Below, piece by piece: positions 16,934 to 24,360 of a stretch of DNA of 64,000 nt (position 1 is the stretch's first letter; each line of letters starts with the position of its first letter). Source of the stretch: Halococcus qingdaonensis (GTDB lineage Archaea > Halobacteriota > Halobacteria > Halobacteriales > Halococcaceae); NCBI RefSeq assembly GCF_024508235.1, contig NZ_CP101943.1, positions 1,426,001 to 1,490,000 of the forward strand, read 5' to 3'. The position numbers and the translations under genes are program-made. The notes below the pieces were generated by a model. That model was not told the DNA's origin and ran no database searches. It was given only the letters and a program-made list of their open reading frames with translations.

Positions 16934-18361
16934 CTACTCTTCGAGGAAGGCGAACGGTAGCCGCGCGGGGAACTCGTCGTCGATCGAGAGCCGGTAGCCC
17001 GCGTAGACTAGGAGGCCGACGGCGAGCCAGATCCCCAGTAGAAGAAGGCTGCTGGAGAGGAGTGCCTCACCGACATTGCCGGCGAGCAACTGCTGGATGG
17101 CCGGGCCGAGATCCGCCAGCGAGATCGTCTGTGAGAGGAAGACGAGCATCGAGCCGGCGCTGAACAGCCCGATGACCGCGACCGTCACCGGTCCGAATCG
17201 CAACCCGCTGCGCTCGTACAGTGTCGGGTTGACGTGCGGCAGAGCGACGAGCGAGAGCGCGTGCGCGATGTACATGAACAGGAGCGCGGCCAGCGAGATG
17301 CTCAGCGCGTACGAGAACGTCGAGGTGAGGACGAACGCGACGGCGATTCCCCACGTGAGCGTGAGACCGACGTCGGGCGTACCGAACCGGTCGTTGACGT
17401 GCGTGAGCGCGTCGGGCAGCAGTCGATCCCGACCGAGCGCGTAGAGAATCCGGCTCGGGGACATATAGCCGGCGTTGGCGGTCGTCGCGTACGCGAGCAG
17501 GCTCCCGACGGCGACGATGCCGGCCGTCCCGACCGGGAAGTACGTCGCTGCGGCGTCGGTGAGCGGCGTCTCGCTTCCCGCGACCTGCTCCCACGGCAGG
17601 ATGCCGAGGACGACGACGCTCACGAGCAAGTAGAGCAGTCCGATGAAGAGCACACTGCCGGCGAACACGCGCGGCAGCGTCTTCCGGGGGTTTTCGGTCT
17701 CGCCGGCAGTCTGGGCGAGCGATTCGAAACCGATGTACGAGAAGAAGAGCGCGCTCGTCCCGGCGACGAACGGTTCGACGAGCCCGTCGGCGTACAACTG
17801 GCCGGGAAACAGCGGCGAGAAGTTTCCCGGATCGATCTGGAACAGGCCGGGGAGGCCGAGCAGCAGGAGGACGGCGACGAGGAGACCGGTCAGAATCGCC
17901 TGTGCCCGGCCGAAGACGTCGACGCCGACGAGGTGGAGGACGAACAGGACGGTAAGAAAGGCGATCGCCCACCACTCGGCGGGGAGAAATCGGAAGACGG
18001 GCCAGTAGCGGATCGCGTTGCCGAAGCCGATCGCGAAGACCGCCTGCGCGCCGATGAAGGCGACGACTTTCAGCCAGATGAAGACGTAGCCCGCGAGCGT
18101 CGAGTTCCACGTCCGCGAGATGTGCATGTACGCCCCGCCGGGATGCTCGCCGAGCGGACCGCTCATGAAGACCGCGTAGACGAGCGCGGTCGAGAACACG
18201 ACCGGCAGTCCGGCGAGGAAGCCGAGCGGGACGGCCGGACCCATGAGCTCCGCCGCCGTCCCCGTGACGACGAAGATCCCCGCACCGACCATCGTCCCGA
18301 CGATGACCGCGACGCTGTGTATCCACGAGAGGTTCCGACTGAGACGTCCTGCTGTACCCAT
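16934..18361 (-). CDS. APC superfamily amino acid permease
   Basis: This 475-residue protein has about 12 transmembrane helices. The first, after LSWIHSVAVIVGTMVGAGIF, carries the GxxxGxGIF substrate-site motif of the APC family. The conserved SYIGFESLAQTAGETENP loop in helix 6-7 is also present. The ATG at 18361 is preferred; an in-frame ATG at 18394 would add 11 residues. It sits directly upstream of kynU on the same strand with 40 bp between, so tryptophan, kynurenine or another amino acid is a plausible substrate, though not proven. Confidence 0.87.
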   Translation of the reverse strand: MGTAGRLSRNLSWIHSVAVIVGTMVGAGIFVVTGTAAELMGPAVPLGFLAGLPVVFSTALVYAVFMSGPLGEHPGGAYMHISRTWNSTLAGYVFIWLKVVAFIGAQAVFAIGFGNAIRYWPVFRFLPAEWWAIAFLTVLFVLHLVGVDVFGRAQAILTGLLVAVLLLLGLPGLFQIDPGNFSPLFPGQLYADGLVEPFVAGTSALFFSYIGFESLAQTAGETENPRKTLPRVFAGSVLFIGLLYLLVSVVVLGILPWEQVAGSETPLTDAAATYFPVGTAGIVAVGSLLAYATTANAGYMSPSRILYALGRDRLLPDALTHVNDRFGTPDVGLTLTWGIAVAFVLTSTFSYALSISLAALLFMYIAHALSLVALPHVNPTLYERSGLRFGPVTVAVIGLFSAGSMLVFLSQTISLADLGPAIQQLLAGNVGEALLSSSLLLLGIWLAVGLLVYAGYRLSIDDEFPARLPFAFLEE

Positions 18362-18494
18362 CGATGCGGAAGCAACGAAACGGCCACCGATCATCTTTGT
18401 CTTCCGTTCCGGATGGGTCGCCGACTCGATCAGAGATATCGAAACCATCCCCGTCTTGGATCGGTTTCTCGTCCACCAGTCGGCGGAGCGGGCG

Positions 18495-21086
18495 TCACTC
18501 GTCGGGCCGGATGCGCGAGAGCCGCATCGCGTTGCCGGTCACGCCGACGGTCATGCCGGCGTCGCCGGCGAGCACCGCCAGCCAGATCGGGACGTAGCCG
18601 AACGGGACCGCAACTGCGAGCCCGGCCTTAAAGAGGAGGCTGCCGACGATGTTCTGGCGGATGACGCCGTTGGCGTCGTTCGCGAGCTCGTAGAGATAGG
18701 GCAGTTTCGCGAGATCGTCGCCCATCAGCGCGATGTCGGCGGTTTCGAGTGCCGTGTCCGTGCCGGCGGCCCCCATCGCGACCCCAACCGTCGCGGTCGC
18801 GAGCGCCGGCGCGTCGTTGATCCCGTCGCCGATCATCGCCACTCCATCGTAGTCGTCGACCAGCTCGTCGATCGCTTCGACCTTCTCGTCGGGCAGCAGT
18901 TCCGCCCGATGTTCGTCGACACCGACTTCCTCGGCGATCGCACGCGCGGTACGATCGTTGTCGCCCGTGAGCATCACCGTGTGCTCGACACCGAGTTCCT
19001 GGAGACGGGCGACCGTCCGCTTCGCCTCGTCGCGCACTTCGTCGGCGACCGCGACGACACCCTCCAGTTCGTCTTCCGTACCGACGAGCACGACGGTCTT
19101 ACCCTCGGATTGGAGTTCTGGCACCGTCTCTTCCAGCAGATCGAGACAGTCGTTGCGCTCGCAGAGCTGGCGCGTCGTCTCCGTGACGACACCTCCGTCG
19201 GTCGTCGCGTGGACGTGTGAGAGATCAAAGCCGAGATCGTCGAACAGGCCAGGTTTGCCGGCGAAGTGTGGCGTGCCGTCGAGTTCCGCCCGTACGCCCT
19301 TCCCGGTGATCGATTCGAAATCGTCGATCTCGCGCTCGGCGACGCCCGCGCCCCCGGCCTCGGCGACGATGGCCTCGCCGATCGGGTGCTCGCTGCGCTT
19401 TTCGAGCCCGCGCGCACATCGGAGAACGTCCTCCTCGGTGTTGCCGTTGAGCGAAACGACGTCGGTGACGGTGAGTTCGCCCTTCGTGAGCGTCCCAGTT
19501 TTATCGAACGCCACCACGTCGACCGCGCCCATCGCTTCGAGGTGGTTGCCACCCTTGATGAGCACGCCGTTGTCCGCGGCGCTCGTGATGCCCGACACCA
19601 CGGAGACGGGCGTCGAGATGACGAACGCGCACGGGCACGCGAGCACCAGCAGGGTGAGACCGTGGACGACGGCCGTCGACCACGTCGTTCCGAGGACGAA
19701 CGGACTGCCGAGCGTGACGAGGACGGCAAACGCGACGACGACGGGCGTGTACCACGCCGAAAATCGCTCGACGAACTGCTCGCGCTCGGTCTTGTTCGAC
19801 TGGGCGTCCTCGACCATCTCCACGATCCGTGAGAGGGTGTTGTCCGCGGCCCCGGAGGTGACCTGCACTTCGAGATAGCCCTCCTCGTTGATCGTCCCCG
19901 CGTACACCTCGTCGCCAGTCGTCTTGTCGACCGGGACGCTCTCGCCGGTGATCGGGGCCTGATTGACCGCGCTCTCGCCCTCGACGACGTCGCCGTCCAT
20001 CGGGATCTTCTCGCCCGGGCGCACCACTACGACCTCGCCGACCGATACCTCGTCGACCGGGATCGTTTCCTCGTCGCCATCGTCCCGCTTGACGGTCGCC
20101 TCGTCCGGCGAGAGATCCATCAGCTCCTGAAGCGAGTTGCGGGCCTGATCCATCGAGGAGCGTTCGAGCAGTTCGGCGATACTGAACAGGAACGCGAGCG
20201 TCGCGGCCTCGAAGTAGAGCGCTTCGCCGAACGCGAGGCTTGCGACCAGCGCGCCGAGGATGGCGACCGACATCAGGAAGTCGATGTCGAGATTGAGATT
20301 TCGCACCGAGTAGTAGCCGTTCCGGAGGATCTCCTGGCCGCCGAACACGACCCCGATCAGGAAGAGGATGTCCGCGACGAACAGCTCGCTTCCGAGAACC
20401 GTCACGACGGCGGCGTTCTGCGCCCCGAGAACGAACTCGAAGAGCAGTCCGAGCCCGAGGAAGCCACCGCTGATCCAGGTCTTGATCGCGCGCGTGCTCG
20501 TCCAGATGCTGTCGTTCGTATCGCTCCCGTCGCTCGATCCCTCGCTTGCGGCGTCGGTGACGGTGTAGCCGGCGCTCTCGATGGCCTCGACGAGTTCGCT
20601 CTCGCCTGTTGTCGCCGCGTCGTAGGTGACGGCTACGTTCCCAGTCGTCGACTGGGTCTCGTACGAGGAGATACCGGTAATCCGATCGAGCGCGTTCTCG
20701 ACCTTGCCCGCACAGGAAGGACAGTCTATGTCCGGGACCGAGAGCGTCGTGGTCGTCGTACCCGATTCCTCGACGGTGTAACCGGCCTTCTCGATTCGGT
20801 CGGTGATCGCATCGCGGCTCGTTCGGTCGTCGAAGGCGACGGTGAGCGTGCCGGTCGTCACTTGCGGGTCGACGCCGTCGATCCCGTCGAGTTTCCGGAC
20901 GCTGCGTTCGACCTTCCCTGCACACGAGGGACAGTCCATGTCGGGAACCGAGAGCTGAACGACGCTTTCCTCGTCTATCGAAGTCGAAATCGGCGGGTCG
21001 TCCTGAACACTGGCTTCGCGGTCGGGATCGTCGTGCCCGTCGGATGGCGGGCCGATCCCGTCCTCCGACCGATCGGATGCGTCCAT
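18495..21086 (-). CDS. heavy-metal P1B-type ATPase (Zn/Cd/Pb exporter type)
   Basis: This 863-residue pump has two N-terminal HMA domains with CPSC at 52-55 and at 122-125 and eight predicted helices. The membrane CPC motif is at 484-486, the phosphorylation site DKTGT begins at Asp528, and the SEHPIGEAI and GDGINDAPAL motifs follow. The CPC flanks and the last-helix AGDAGMTVGVTGNA with an acidic residue fit the P1B-2 (ZntA) group, so Zn, Cd or Pb export is likely and Cu export less so. It heads a metal-homeostasis region. The upstream 60 bp contain a 12-bp perfect palindrome (21131-21142). Confidence 0.92.
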   Translation of the reverse strand: MDASDRSEDGIGPPSDGHDDPDREASVQDDPPISTSIDEESVVQLSVPDMDCPSCAGKVERSVRKLDGIDGVDPQVTTGTLTVAFDDRTSRDAITDRIEKAGYTVEESGTTTTTLSVPDIDCPSCAGKVENALDRITGISSYETQSTTGNVAVTYDAATTGESELVEAIESAGYTVTDAASEGSSDGSDTNDSIWTSTRAIKTWISGGFLGLGLLFEFVLGAQNAAVVTVLGSELFVADILFLIGVVFGGQEILRNGYYSVRNLNLDIDFLMSVAILGALVASLAFGEALYFEAATLAFLFSIAELLERSSMDQARNSLQELMDLSPDEATVKRDDGDEETIPVDEVSVGEVVVVRPGEKIPMDGDVVEGESAVNQAPITGESVPVDKTTGDEVYAGTINEEGYLEVQVTSGAADNTLSRIVEMVEDAQSNKTEREQFVERFSAWYTPVVVAFAVLVTLGSPFVLGTTWSTAVVHGLTLLVLACPCAFVISTPVSVVSGITSAADNGVLIKGGNHLEAMGAVDVVAFDKTGTLTKGELTVTDVVSLNGNTEEDVLRCARGLEKRSEHPIGEAIVAEAGGAGVAEREIDDFESITGKGVRAELDGTPHFAGKPGLFDDLGFDLSHVHATTDGGVVTETTRQLCERNDCLDLLEETVPELQSEGKTVVLVGTEDELEGVVAVADEVRDEAKRTVARLQELGVEHTVMLTGDNDRTARAIAEEVGVDEHRAELLPDEKVEAIDELVDDYDGVAMIGDGINDAPALATATVGVAMGAAGTDTALETADIALMGDDLAKLPYLYELANDANGVIRQNIVGSLLFKAGLAVAVPFGYVPIWLAVLAGDAGMTVGVTGNAMRLSRIRPDE

Positions 21087-21130
21087 TACCGACGCTACGG
21101 GATGCCTTTTTATTAACCTAACTGCTAAAA

Positions 21131-21142
21131 TAGCGGCCGCTA
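21131..21142. promoter_or_regulatory. 12-bp palindrome upstream of the P-type ATPase
   Basis: TAGCGGCCGCTA is perfectly palindromic and lies 45 bp upstream of the ATPase start, in a locally AT-rich stretch with TTAACCTAA just before it. The position fits an operator for metal-responsive control, but the palindrome is short and no regulator is assigned. Confidence 0.35.
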
Positions 21143-21189
21143 ATAATAGTGATTATGAACGAAAGCGGAACGGAGTAACAACCCGCCGT

Positions 21190-21686
21190 TCAGCCCGATT
21201 CTTCGGCGTTGACTGCCATCACGGGAACGTTTGTCTCGCGGATGACTCGTTCGGTGACGTCATCAGAACCTTCGGGTTCTGATTGGCTCACGGGAGCCAG
21301 CTCCCGTGAACGCTGCCGAGGAGCCGATGCTGGAGCCCGGTGCGGCCGTGCGTTCCCATCACGACGAGATCGATCCCGTTCTCGGCGGCGTACTCGGGGA
21401 TCCGTCGATCGGGCGCTCCTTCGAGGATCTCTGTGACGAGTTCGACGCCGACATCCGCTGTCACGGCTTCGACCTCCGCGAGGACTCGTGTCGCGGTCTC
21501 GCGGCCGACCTCCCAGAGCGCGTCGTGGACCTCGACCTTCGAGACCGTCATCCAGCTCTTGTCGGTGTCGACGACGAACAGCGCGTGGAGCGTCGCGTCG
21601 TACCGATCGGCGAGATCGAGCGCGTGCCGGACCGCAGCGGCTGCGGGCTCGCTGCCGTCGGTCGGGACGAGGATGCGATCGTACAT
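21190..21686 (-). pseudogene. universal stress protein UspA, disrupted near the 3' end
   Basis: The frame starts MYDRILVPTDGSEPAAAA and runs through the UspA nucleotide-binding fold, including GTHGRTG, up to LLGSV. There a 53-bp insertion (21259-21311) introduces HGSWLP and a TGA at 21288-21290. Directly beyond the insert the expected C-terminus continues, TERVIRETNVPVMAVNAEES, ending with TGA at 21190. Removing exactly 53 bp restores GSV-TERV with no loss. The truncated 132-residue product would lack the last beta strand (VPVMAV) used in dimerisation, so the gene is probably inactive or impaired. It lies between the P-type ATPase and Mn transporter genes. Confidence 0.85.
21259..21311. mobile_element. 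53-bp double-hairpin insertion inside uspA (IS200/IS605-derived mini-element candidate)
   Basis: The insert has two perfect hairpins: arms TCAGAACC and GGTTCTGA around a TTCG loop (21263-21282), and arms TCACGGGAGC and GCTCCCGTGA around a 2-base loop (21288-21309), separated by 5 bp. There is no target duplication, and exact excision rebuilds the uspA frame. Subterminal hairpins at both ends and no duplication are hallmarks of IS200/IS605 transposition and of palindrome-associated mini-elements derived from it. The boundary is uncertain by 1-2 bp because the flanks are similar. No transposase of that family is in the window. Confidence 0.7.
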
Positions 21687-21737
21687 GTCAGTTGCGGCCT
21701 CCGATCCGTCCGATCGATCGTCGGCCGTCGACGCCCG

Positions 21738-22997
21738 TCATCCGAGCACCCCGAAGCCGAACTGCGCGTACGGCCAGAAGTAGTAGACGAGAATCCCGAC
21801 GAGGACGCCGGGAATCGTCGTGTAGATCGTGGCGATGATCGCGGCCTTCAGATCGATCGCCAGCAGCGGGAACAGCGCGTCGCCGTCCTGACTGATGGCG
21901 TTCGCCACGAGCGCCGAGAACGGGATCGCCTCTTCGAGGGCGTACAGCTGCGCGAACACGATGTGTGCCGCACAGCCGGGGATCAGTCCGAGCACCGCGC
22001 CCGCGATCGGTGCGAAGATGCCTGCGGCCGCCGCGAGCGCCTGGATCTCGACGCCGGTGAGCAGGAGACCGTACTCGTAGAGCAGGTAGCCAGCGATGAC
22101 CCAGACCGTGACCATCGCTGTCTCCATCGCGGCGTGCTGGAAGGTGTTGTAGAGGCTCTCGAACGAGTCGCGAACGCGACCGGTCTCACCCTCGCCGATG
22201 TAGTGGCGACCGACGAAGTAGAGGTAGAACGACAGCGTGGTGCCGACGAGCCCGGTGATCGTGAACAGACCGTCGTAGGTGGCCGCGACCTCCCACGCGG
22301 GCTCCTGTGCACCCTTCGCGAGATACAGCACGCCGGCGACGAGCGCGCCCGCGAGAACGACCCACCAGAGAACGTGGATCGCGTGGCTGACGCGTTCGAG
22401 CAGCCGGGACTGGGACAGGTAGCTCGGGAGATCGCCGCCGTGATCGTGGTCGTGATCGTGACCGTCCGGGCCGTCGTAGTCGGCGATGCTCGGACCGCCG
22501 TCGGCGACGCTCGTCGTCGCGAACCCGCCGTCAGTCATCGGACGGCCGATGCGCTCGACCGCGTTGTCGACGTAGCCGACGCCGAGCCCGAAGATATCGA
22601 TCGCGTAGCCGAACAGCACCGCCGCGACGAACGCCATCCCGTAGGCGTACAGCGCCGCCTCGGGTGCGAGCGCGAGGATGATGAACGCCGAGTCACCGGC
22701 GGTCGCCGCGAGCGCCGCGACGACGGTACCGAAACTGACCGTCCCGCGGATGTAGAGTGGCATGGCGATGATCGCGCCGCCACAGCCCGGCGTGAGCCCG
22801 AGCAGCGCGCCGGTGAGCGGCTGGGCGCGCTCGTTTTCCTGAAGCCACGTGGTGAGGCGGCCATCGAAGCGATACTGGACGAGGCTGAACAGCAGGATCG
22901 TCGCACCGACGAATCCCGAGACCTGCACGAAACCTTCGCGCCACGAGCCGACGAGGATCTCGAAAACCTCCGGCAGGCCGAGTTGAAGCAGGATCAT
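21738..22997 (-). CDS. putative manganese/arsenic-type exporter (ArsP_2/putative Mn transporter family)
   Basis: This roughly 419-residue membrane protein has two repeated halves. Each contains a short glycine motif, GLTPGCGGAI in the first half and GLIPGCAAHI in the second, flanked by hydrophobic helices. A histidine-rich loop GHDHDHDHGG lies in between. This layout matches the putative manganese transporter (ArsP_2-like) family. The ATG at 22997 is used; a GTG at 23051 would add 18 residues. The SirR/DtxR-type regulator 670 bp upstream and the operator-like repeats in between support Mn or another divalent metal as substrate. Confidence 0.78.
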   Translation of the reverse strand: MILLQLGLPEVFEILVGSWREGFVQVSGFVGATILLFSLVQYRFDGRLTTWLQENERAQPLTGALLGLTPGCGGAIIAMPLYIRGTVSFGTVVAALAATAGDSAFIILALAPEAALYAYGMAFVAAVLFGYAIDIFGLGVGYVDNAVERIGRPMTDGGFATTSVADGGPSIADYDGPDGHDHDHDHGGDLPSYLSQSRLLERVSHAIHVLWWVVLAGALVAGVLYLAKGAQEPAWEVAATYDGLFTITGLVGTTLSFYLYFVGRHYIGEGETGRVRDSFESLYNTFQHAAMETAMVTVWVIAGYLLYEYGLLLTGVEIQALAAAAGIFAPIAGAVLGLIPGCAAHIVFAQLYALEEAIPFSALVANAISQDGDALFPLLAIDLKAAIIATIYTTIPGVLVGILVYYFWPYAQFGFGVLG

Positions 22998-23130
22998 CAG
23001 CCAGGGGACCCCTCGGATCGGGTGCGACGGTCGAGTCGGGAAGCGATACACTCGCTCGATCGAGAGTTGTCGTTCATTCGCAGGCGACTGTGAATGAGCG
23101 AAGGCAATAAAGATTTGTATCTAAATCGTG

Positions 23131-23148
23131 TATTAGTAGTCACTAATA
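23131..23148. promoter_or_regulatory. operator-like inverted repeat upstream of the Mn transporter gene
   Basis: TATTAGT and ACTAATA are separated by 4 bp, giving an 18-bp dyad about 130 bp upstream of the transporter ATG (80 bp upstream of the alternative GTG). The TTAG...CTAA arrangement resembles DtxR/IdeR-family operators, and a DtxR-family gene lies next door. Binding by that regulator is inference. Confidence 0.5.
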
Positions 23149-23338
23149 GCGATAGGGAGTCTCTCAAAACCGTCGGCGGTTTCTCAACACAGCCTGGATA
23201 ATACGAAAACGGACTTCTGGCGTCGAGTGAACTACCGAGTGATGACGGTTCTTCCGAGGATTTGCGGGGTAGAGCGATAATTGCCGAGATCGTCGAGACC
23301 CATCCATGGGTGCTATTCTAGAAGAGCAAAAGAAATAA

Positions 23339-23354
23339 ATTAGTATATCCTAAT
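23339..23354. promoter_or_regulatory. second TTAG/CTAA inverted repeat
   Basis: ATTAG and CTAAT flank a 6-bp AT-rich centre, a weaker version of the 23131-23148 dyad in the same intergenic region. It may be a second binding site for the adjacent DtxR-type regulator, or chance in AT-rich DNA. Confidence 0.35.
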
Positions 23355-23664
23355 AATCGGGCAGGAGGTGAAACACGATCGTTGGACACGCCACATAGAA
23401 CGGCTCGAACACTCGTGTGTTGACACATCTGTCTACACCAGTGTGCCTCTACCGAAATGAGTGAAATTCTGCATTCCCTAGCGTTTCGTTCTCGATACTC
23501 GTCCTCCAGCGACCGCGATCGAACCGATACGATACTGTGAGTGGCCGACATCTGATTCCGACGAACGATCCATTAGCGGCCGCAGTGGTGTGGCTGCTGG
23601 CAACTGTCATGATAGCTCGATCGCAGGAATGGTCCGACACGACGGGCAGACGACCCCGTCCATG

Positions 23665-24360
23665 CTAGCCGACCAACGACATCTCGTTGTCCGACGGGGC
23701 AGTGTCGAGTTCGCGGACGTACATGCTGGTGGTGATCTCGTCGGGGAGCGAGACCGTCTCACCGCCATCGCTCGGCGCGACAGTCATCAGTCCAAAGGGA
23801 GCGATCTCGGTGATTGCGAGCTGTGTCCCGGGCGTGATACCGGCATCGGCGAGATAGGAAAGCACCTCCGAATCGCTGTCGGCGACCTGTGTGACGACGA
23901 CCGTCTCGCCCTCACTGCAGTCGGCGAGCGTTGCATCGTCGTCCGCGGTCGGTTCGAGATCCTCGGTCGGGATCGGCGCGCCGTGGGGGTCGGCGCTGGG
24001 GTCGCCGAGAGCGGCCGCGAGCTTGGTTTCGAGGCGCTCGCTGATGTGGTGTTCGAGCCGATCGGCCTCCTCGTGGACCTCCGCCCAGTCGTAGCCCAGT
24101 TGCTCTGTCAGAAACAGTTCGAGCAGTCGATGATGGCGGATCGTTTCGAGCGCGACCAGTTCGCCCTCGGCGGTCAGCTGGACGCCTTTGTACTCCTCGC
24201 GCTCGGCGAGGTCAGCGTCTTCGAGGCGCTTGGTCGTCGCCGTCACCGTTGGAGGCGTGACGCCGAGCGAATCGGCGATCGCCGACGTGGAGACGGGCTC
24301 GTCGCCCTCATGGAGCTGGTAGATCGCTTTGAGATAGTCCTCGGATGTCGCGCTTGGCAT
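23665..24360 (-). CDS. sirR: DtxR/SirR-family metal-dependent transcriptional regulator
   Basis: This 231-residue protein has an N-terminal winged helix (about 5-65, with SIADSLGVTPPTVTATTKRL as the HTH), a metal-binding dimerisation domain with the expected His/Glu-rich helices (EADRLEHHISERLE), and a C-terminal FeoA/SH3-like domain (about 150-225). Family members bind Fe or Mn and repress uptake or activate efflux genes. The neighbouring P-type ATPase, Mn transporter and TTAG/CTAA repeats make local regulation likely. The protein starts at the ATG at 24360. The metal specificity cannot be told from sequence. Confidence 0.92.
   Translation of the reverse strand: MPSATSEDYLKAIYQLHEGDEPVSTSAIADSLGVTPPTVTATTKRLEDADLAEREEYKGVQLTAEGELVALETIRHHRLLELFLTEQLGYDWAEVHEEADRLEHHISERLETKLAAALGDPSADPHGAPIPTEDLEPTADDDATLADCSEGETVVVTQVADSDSEVLSYLADAGITPGTQLAITEIAPFGLMTVAPSDGGETVSLPDEITTSMYVRELDTAPSDNEMSLVG

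Follow-up and report, generated by a model that had tools for sequence, protein, structure and literature searches.

CGTC-tagged REPs have been reported in five bacterial phyla, with archaea not named among the hosts, and include dRS3 of Neisseria and RPE-4 and RPE-6 of R. conorii (Di Nocera et al. 2013, PMC3733652). They have a CGTC tip, a stem of 8–9 bp that opens with an A-T and a T-A pair, and a 4-base loop; inverted dimers of unlike partners are frequent, intragenic copies lie in frame, and no dedicated transposase has been found. Rickettsia palindromic elements are about 150 bp long (PMC10969869) and lie in frame in unrelated functional proteins, to which they add a similar peptide. In REPIN/BIME elements with a RAYT (TnpA_REP), two inverted hairpins form one mobile unit (PMC3116915, PMC8266576). 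In this bacterial system, a HUH transposase recognizes a tetranucleotide next to the stem, and its cut site is a dinucleotide (PMC8266576). The TnpA_REP class is reported to be absent from archaea, for which only the IS200-like TnpA subclass 1.1 is reported (PMC6006769). In haloarchaea, the PATEs and SMRs of Haloquadratum are transposase-free and palindromic, make no clear duplication and are in some cases only 52 bp long; the 52-bp terminal-only PATEs keep one palindrome and appear to be mobilized (PMC3119063). Archaeal REPs are also reported by RepRanger, with no halobacterium listed in the accessible part of that source (PMC12306157).

The locus described here belongs to a large double-hairpin family that is spread across salt-loving archaea and is apparently previously undescribed; no haloarchaeal description of the element was found in the open-access literature. 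Judged from sequence comparison, the family probably consists of short non-coding mobile elements that resemble dimers of CGTC-tagged REPs (probability about 0.7).

The window, a stretch of 64,000 nucleotides from Halococcus qingdaonensis, contains one copy of the element (Table 1). Direct reading of the sequence places a 53-bp double hairpin exactly where the first-pass annotation had put it. The annotation described arms of 8 bp and 10 bp; the second hairpin indeed has a stem of 10 bp, with loop CA, whereas the stem of the first is 9 bp, not 8, with A-T and T-A as its first pairs and TTCG as its loop. The element folds far better than dinucleotide shuffles of itself (z −6.05 as DNA and −5.62 as RNA), and none of 200 shuffles equals it. 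An Rfam search of the region gave no match above chance.

Table 1. Features of the uspA locus in window coordinates, and the two other copies of the element in the same genome
Feature	Position	Strand	Remarks
uspA open reading frame as now readable, 132 aa	21288..21686	-	ends early at a stop codon within hairpin 2 (...LLGSVHGSWLP-stop)
Displaced uspA C-terminal codons, VTERVIRETNVPVMAVNAEESG-stop	21190..21258	-	matching sequence contiguous at empty sites L012 and L013
53-bp double-hairpin element (GTCATC...GTGAAC)	21259..21311	+	between C21258 and G21312; sequence read
CGTC tag, left tip	21258..21261	+	C is flank or target; CGTC in 57/60 aligned copies
Hairpin 1, ATCAGAACC-TTCG-GGTTCTGAT	21262..21283	+	outer stem conserved, inner stem covarying
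Linker TGGC	21284..21287	+	family consensus ATTGGC, 49/60 copies
Hairpin 2, TCACGGGAGC-CA-GCTCCCGTGA	21288..21309	+	sequence free; covariation at all 8 modelled pairs across the family
Inverted tag, right tip	21309..21312	-	CGTT on minus strand; plus-strand AACG or GACG in 46/60 copies
Own-genome copy 2 (L288)	G000:C1:2257301-2257362		covariance model, 36 bits; diverged
Own-genome copy 3 (L289)	G000:C1:48771-48829		covariance model, 34.8 bits; diverged

The window copy disrupts the uspA frame and truncates the gene. The frame is broken after LLGSV and the missing C-terminus lies immediately beyond the element, as the annotation had proposed; when the flanks are joined without the element, a single open frame results. 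The truncated product matches the Pfam Usp domain over positions 1–125 of 141. Empty sites, which the annotation had suggested looking for in close relatives, are present in two congeners (G001 and G009), with an offset of exactly 53 bp in the alignment. Both junctions of the window copy have CG (here ACG), which the empty site should contain only once; the junctions thus reflect either a C^G cut without duplication or a duplication of 2–3 bp. Judged from open reading frames only, the neighbours of uspA (window positions 16934–24360) encode a protein resembling amino-acid permeases, a metal P-type ATPase that carries two heavy-metal domains, a membrane protein of 437 aa and a protein resembling metal-dependent regulators.

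Searching relatives with the region gave element-only matches of 55–57 bp in several halobacterial genomes, with up to nine in one genome. Among 195 genomes of the order, 65 contain the strict motif of hairpin 1, and none contains its reversed control. Because the exact stems match only the window copy in its own genome, other copies there were sought with a covariance model, which was built from 60 aligned copies. The model detects the element in 47 of 59 halobacterial genomes, with a maximum of 57 copies per genome. It scores the window element at 66.9 bits (E 2e-25) and finds three clear copies in the own genome, this one included. One of the others (L289) precedes another usp gene by about 100 bp. 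A collection scan yielded at least 120 matching stretches; among the matches listed, all are haloarchaeal except three bacterial ones. These three lack the second hairpin, are probably due to chance and were dismissed. The strict motif has zero matches in viral contigs. The annotation's non-autonomous mini-element is borne out, in that the element is dispersed, with many copies and empty sites, and the annotation's own caveat, that the sequence might recur nowhere else, falls away with copies across many halobacterial genomes.

The unit has the layout C^GTCA-hairpin 1-TTGGC-hairpin 2-(A/G)AC^G, in which the carets mark the element ends. It is 51–60 bp long, sits at a CG dinucleotide and carries its tags outward, with tips and linker at the frequencies listed in Table 1. 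The two hairpins are maintained by compensatory change. Specifically, 93.9% of the cells in the 60 copies pair, compared with 75.8% of those in shuffles, and changes on both sides affect 187 cells, compared with 58.6 in shuffles and 16–46 in slid controls. This kind of variation is seen in the inner part of hairpin 1 and over the full length of hairpin 2. The outer stem of hairpin 1 is fixed and its first two pairs are invariant in the 60 copies, which is partly imposed by the search motif. The second hairpin is recognizable beside the first in all but two of the 129 strict-motif copies.

The unit is dispersed at unrelated CG sites and has been inserted cleanly where close relatives are empty. 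A C immediately precedes 124 of the 129 copies. In one genome (G192), the genes for acyl-CoA dehydrogenase, PurK and ThpR carry 57-bp inserts that are missing from most of 26 congeners, an exact 57-bp alignment break being established in the pairs worked out; the PurK site is also filled in G203 and the ThpR site in G204. Acyl-CoA dehydrogenase genes that lack the insert have CTCGTC^GTCGCC at this site. The tip is similar to the target (CGTC), which makes the junctions of the G192 copies ambiguous by up to about five bases. The uspA copy shares only CG (or ACG) with its site, which suggests that TC belongs to the element. CG, which microhomology extends to as much as ACGTC, is found at both junctions and once in the empty site.

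In relatives, many copies lie in frame within core genes, including those for PurA, PurK, PurD, ribonucleotide reductase (RNR), PGM and acyl-CoA dehydrogenase. The in-frame copies have one fixed orientation and phase, and the minus strand of the element is read in all of them. A similar peptide, ...SSGNQNSESSDD, is added to unrelated proteins; in context, the insert reads ...D^V(D/R)ERSSSGNQNSESSDD^..., and it is hydrophilic and acidic. The fixed orientation could reflect selection, since reading of the opposite strand would give a hydrophobic and basic peptide such as VIRTLRVLIGSRE, or a strand bias of insertion. In the frame test, each flank was scored separately for coding composition and continuity was not assumed. 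Where both flanks are coding-like, the frame is kept in 23 of 26 copies (p 9e-9 against one third), and in 16 of 19 (p 7e-6) once orthologous sites had been combined manually. With its length of 53 bp, the window copy breaks its gene and is an exception among genic copies.

Several Pfam domains span the inserts, namely ABC_tran, Acyl-CoA_dh_M, PurK_C, Adenylsucc_synt, polyprenyl_synt and AMP-binding_C, together with domains of a DEAD helicase, M20 peptidases, phosphoglycerate mutase, ribonucleotide reductase and, among others, an ETF protein. The PurD insert separates two domains. Alignment to sequences of solved structures places the adenylosuccinate synthetase insert in a gap of the solved structure's sequence, as extra sequence; the insert in acyl-CoA dehydrogenase has an aligned block on either side. 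In a histidine kinase (L072, genome G105), the insert lies amid repeated DAVEHGST peptides, which may themselves derive from such palindromes.

The anatomy of the element fits CGTC-tagged REP dimers and the Rickettsia palindromic elements better than PATEs. The REP superfamily is marked by a CGTC tip (or TGTC/CCTC), an 8–9 bp stem with two A/T pairs first and a loop of 4–5 bases, a predominance of dimers in opposite orientation, and an unpaired tail that is mostly CCA. The haloarchaeal element has the CGTC tip in 57 of 60 copies, the stem and loop as described, and a partner hairpin with an inverted tip in all but two of 129 copies, and it shares the in-frame intragenic copies. It lacks the CCA tail: TTGGC (49/60) stands where most, not all, families of CGTC-tagged REPs carry CCA (PMC3733652). 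It differs further in that the dimer is almost obligatory, the linker has 4–6 bases and the sequence of hairpin 2 is free. Kinship with the bacterial CGTC repeats is likely, although the shared motifs are short; the replacement of the CCA tail by TTGGC may instead mark the likeness as convergence. The Rickettsia habit of in-frame insertion with a common peptide is found in the family, whereas the window copy breaks its frame; the Rickettsia elements differ in the domain of life of their hosts and in length.

Other described classes are further removed. REPIN/BIME elements with a RAYT carry a GTAG tag, a C^T cut and a cognate TnpA_REP, whereas the tag here is CGTC and the junction C^G, and no archaeal TnpA_REP has been reported. 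PATEs are linked to IS605-type ends, and their 52-bp forms contain one palindrome; SMRs measure 80–110 bp, have terminal inverted repeats and use PATEs as targets; in-frame genic copies are not mentioned in the accessible part of the account (PMC3119063). The inverted repeats of the haloarchaeal unit are only its 3–4 bp tips, CGTC and (A/G)ACG, whereas the terminal inverted repeats of MITEs measure 15–30 bp. Single REPs measure 20–40 bp, so the suggestion in the annotation that the element is perhaps one of the smallest does not hold.

Movement of the unit could proceed as follows. In single-stranded DNA, on the lagging strand or during repair, the unit would fold into two hairpins. A nuclease acting in trans, most plausibly a HUH-type single-strand transposase, would cut C^G beside the tags, and the cut unit would be moved to another CG. 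Copies within genes would survive where they add a number of bases divisible by three and a peptide that the protein tolerates. The nuclease step, to which we give roughly even odds, has its best model in the bacterial REP system with its HUH transposase (PMC8266576). The reported absence of TnpA_REP from archaea (PMC6006769) and the lack of a significant association between the element and IS200-type TnpA count against it. The moving unit may sometimes be larger, since some copies are embedded in longer composite arrays of hairpins (L288, 114 bp). A wider proposal is tentative and, in our estimate, slightly more doubtful than not: that the family represents ancient, order-wide, protein-coding mobile palindromes, an archaeal counterpart of the Rickettsia elements, served by an unrecognized archaeal single-strand nuclease, and that core enzymes have been repeatedly extended by an acidic, salt-compatible surface peptide.

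The annotation had linked the element to IS200/IS605. Its picture of a mobile, non-coding double hairpin stands; the derivation from IS200/IS605 ends is not supported, as no transposase is bracketed by any of the 129 copies, and Y1 transposases do not co-occur significantly with the element (42/64 element-bearing genomes compared with 68/126 others, p = 0.16), 22 element-bearing genomes having none at all. This result matches what is stated for the bacterial CGTC repeats, namely that they lack a dedicated transposase (PMC3733652). The same null result weighs against a PATE-type remnant, in which IS200/IS605 end hairpins would have been joined after loss of the core and moved in trans by an IS200-type TnpA. 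Such an origin would account for two hairpins with clean ends and no clear duplication, Y1 transposases occur in 110 of 190 genomes, with one in the own genome, and the 52-bp terminal-only PATEs of Haloquadratum, which appear to be mobilized, offer a precedent (PMC3119063). However, no copy has a transposase between hairpins 1 and 2, and the target appears to be CG rather than an oligonucleotide of 4–6 bases. In addition, hairpin 1 lies 3 bases from the tip, a shorter distance than that reported for the PATE 5' end, and the known 52-bp forms have one palindrome (PMC3119063). We therefore regard a PATE-type remnant as quite unlikely.

Copying of folded units by template switching or hairpin strand invasion during replication or repair would need no dedicated nuclease, consistent with the fact that no mobilizing enzyme was found, with arrays of chained alternating hairpins (L045, L018, L051, L052) and with a fold that is kept while arms and loops vary freely. 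This is also unlikely, because single complete units in unrelated genes, with fixed tips at C^G, indicate defined ends, and because the empty sites are clean and the unit length is fixed. A functional host signal, such as a transcription terminator, an RNA-processing site or a protein-binding site, conserved in place beside a merely variable uspA end, would explain orthologous recurrences (MFS gene, L022/L109/L116; PurD, L141/L189) and the conserved small-gene context common to L130/L131/L143/L148/L150. It is highly improbable, since the copies occupy unrelated sites and coding positions in core enzymes, and the sites that are empty in close relatives already contradict it. Intergenic copies could nevertheless have a regulatory effect as well.

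Read as a mobile REP-dimer-like family, the elements would extend both CGTC-tagged hairpin mobile DNA and the rare habit of in-frame protein insertion to archaea. Inserts of 17–20 residues in haloarchaeal proteins would then form a DNA-borne class rather than an adaptation of each protein. Tractable hosts are available among Haloferax and Halorubrum relatives. With inserts in essential enzymes and insert-free orthologues in sister species, the cost or use of the peptide becomes directly testable, as does the question of what moves CGTC repeats.

Some copies occur in larger arrangements. At L045, L018, L051, L052 (G035), L082 and L122 (G002), alternating hairpins are chained by GAACG/TTGGC linkers, as if head-to-tail. 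The own-genome copy L288 belongs to a composite insertion of 114 bp, which has an additional hairpin and is present in G001 and absent from G009 and G004. At the Halorubrum-type loci (L014, L033, L041-L050, L155-L164), most of the 55-bp copies have longer flanks in common, with TGCGGTGCTTACGTC to the left and GCCTGCG...CCCTTTGAGTCCCACC to the right, so that the unit there belongs to a larger intergenic repeat. Similarly, 60-bp copies at L031, L079, L083 and L118-L120 (G005, G007) lie within a larger repeat that starts with TTTTGATCCACATTTTGCCAGC and ends with AGCAAAAGGTGG. At L062, L077, L126, L130, L131, L143, L148, L150 and L154, in several families, the element has one and the same position just before a conserved MARPVCLKWDD stretch, which suggests an old, retained insertion.
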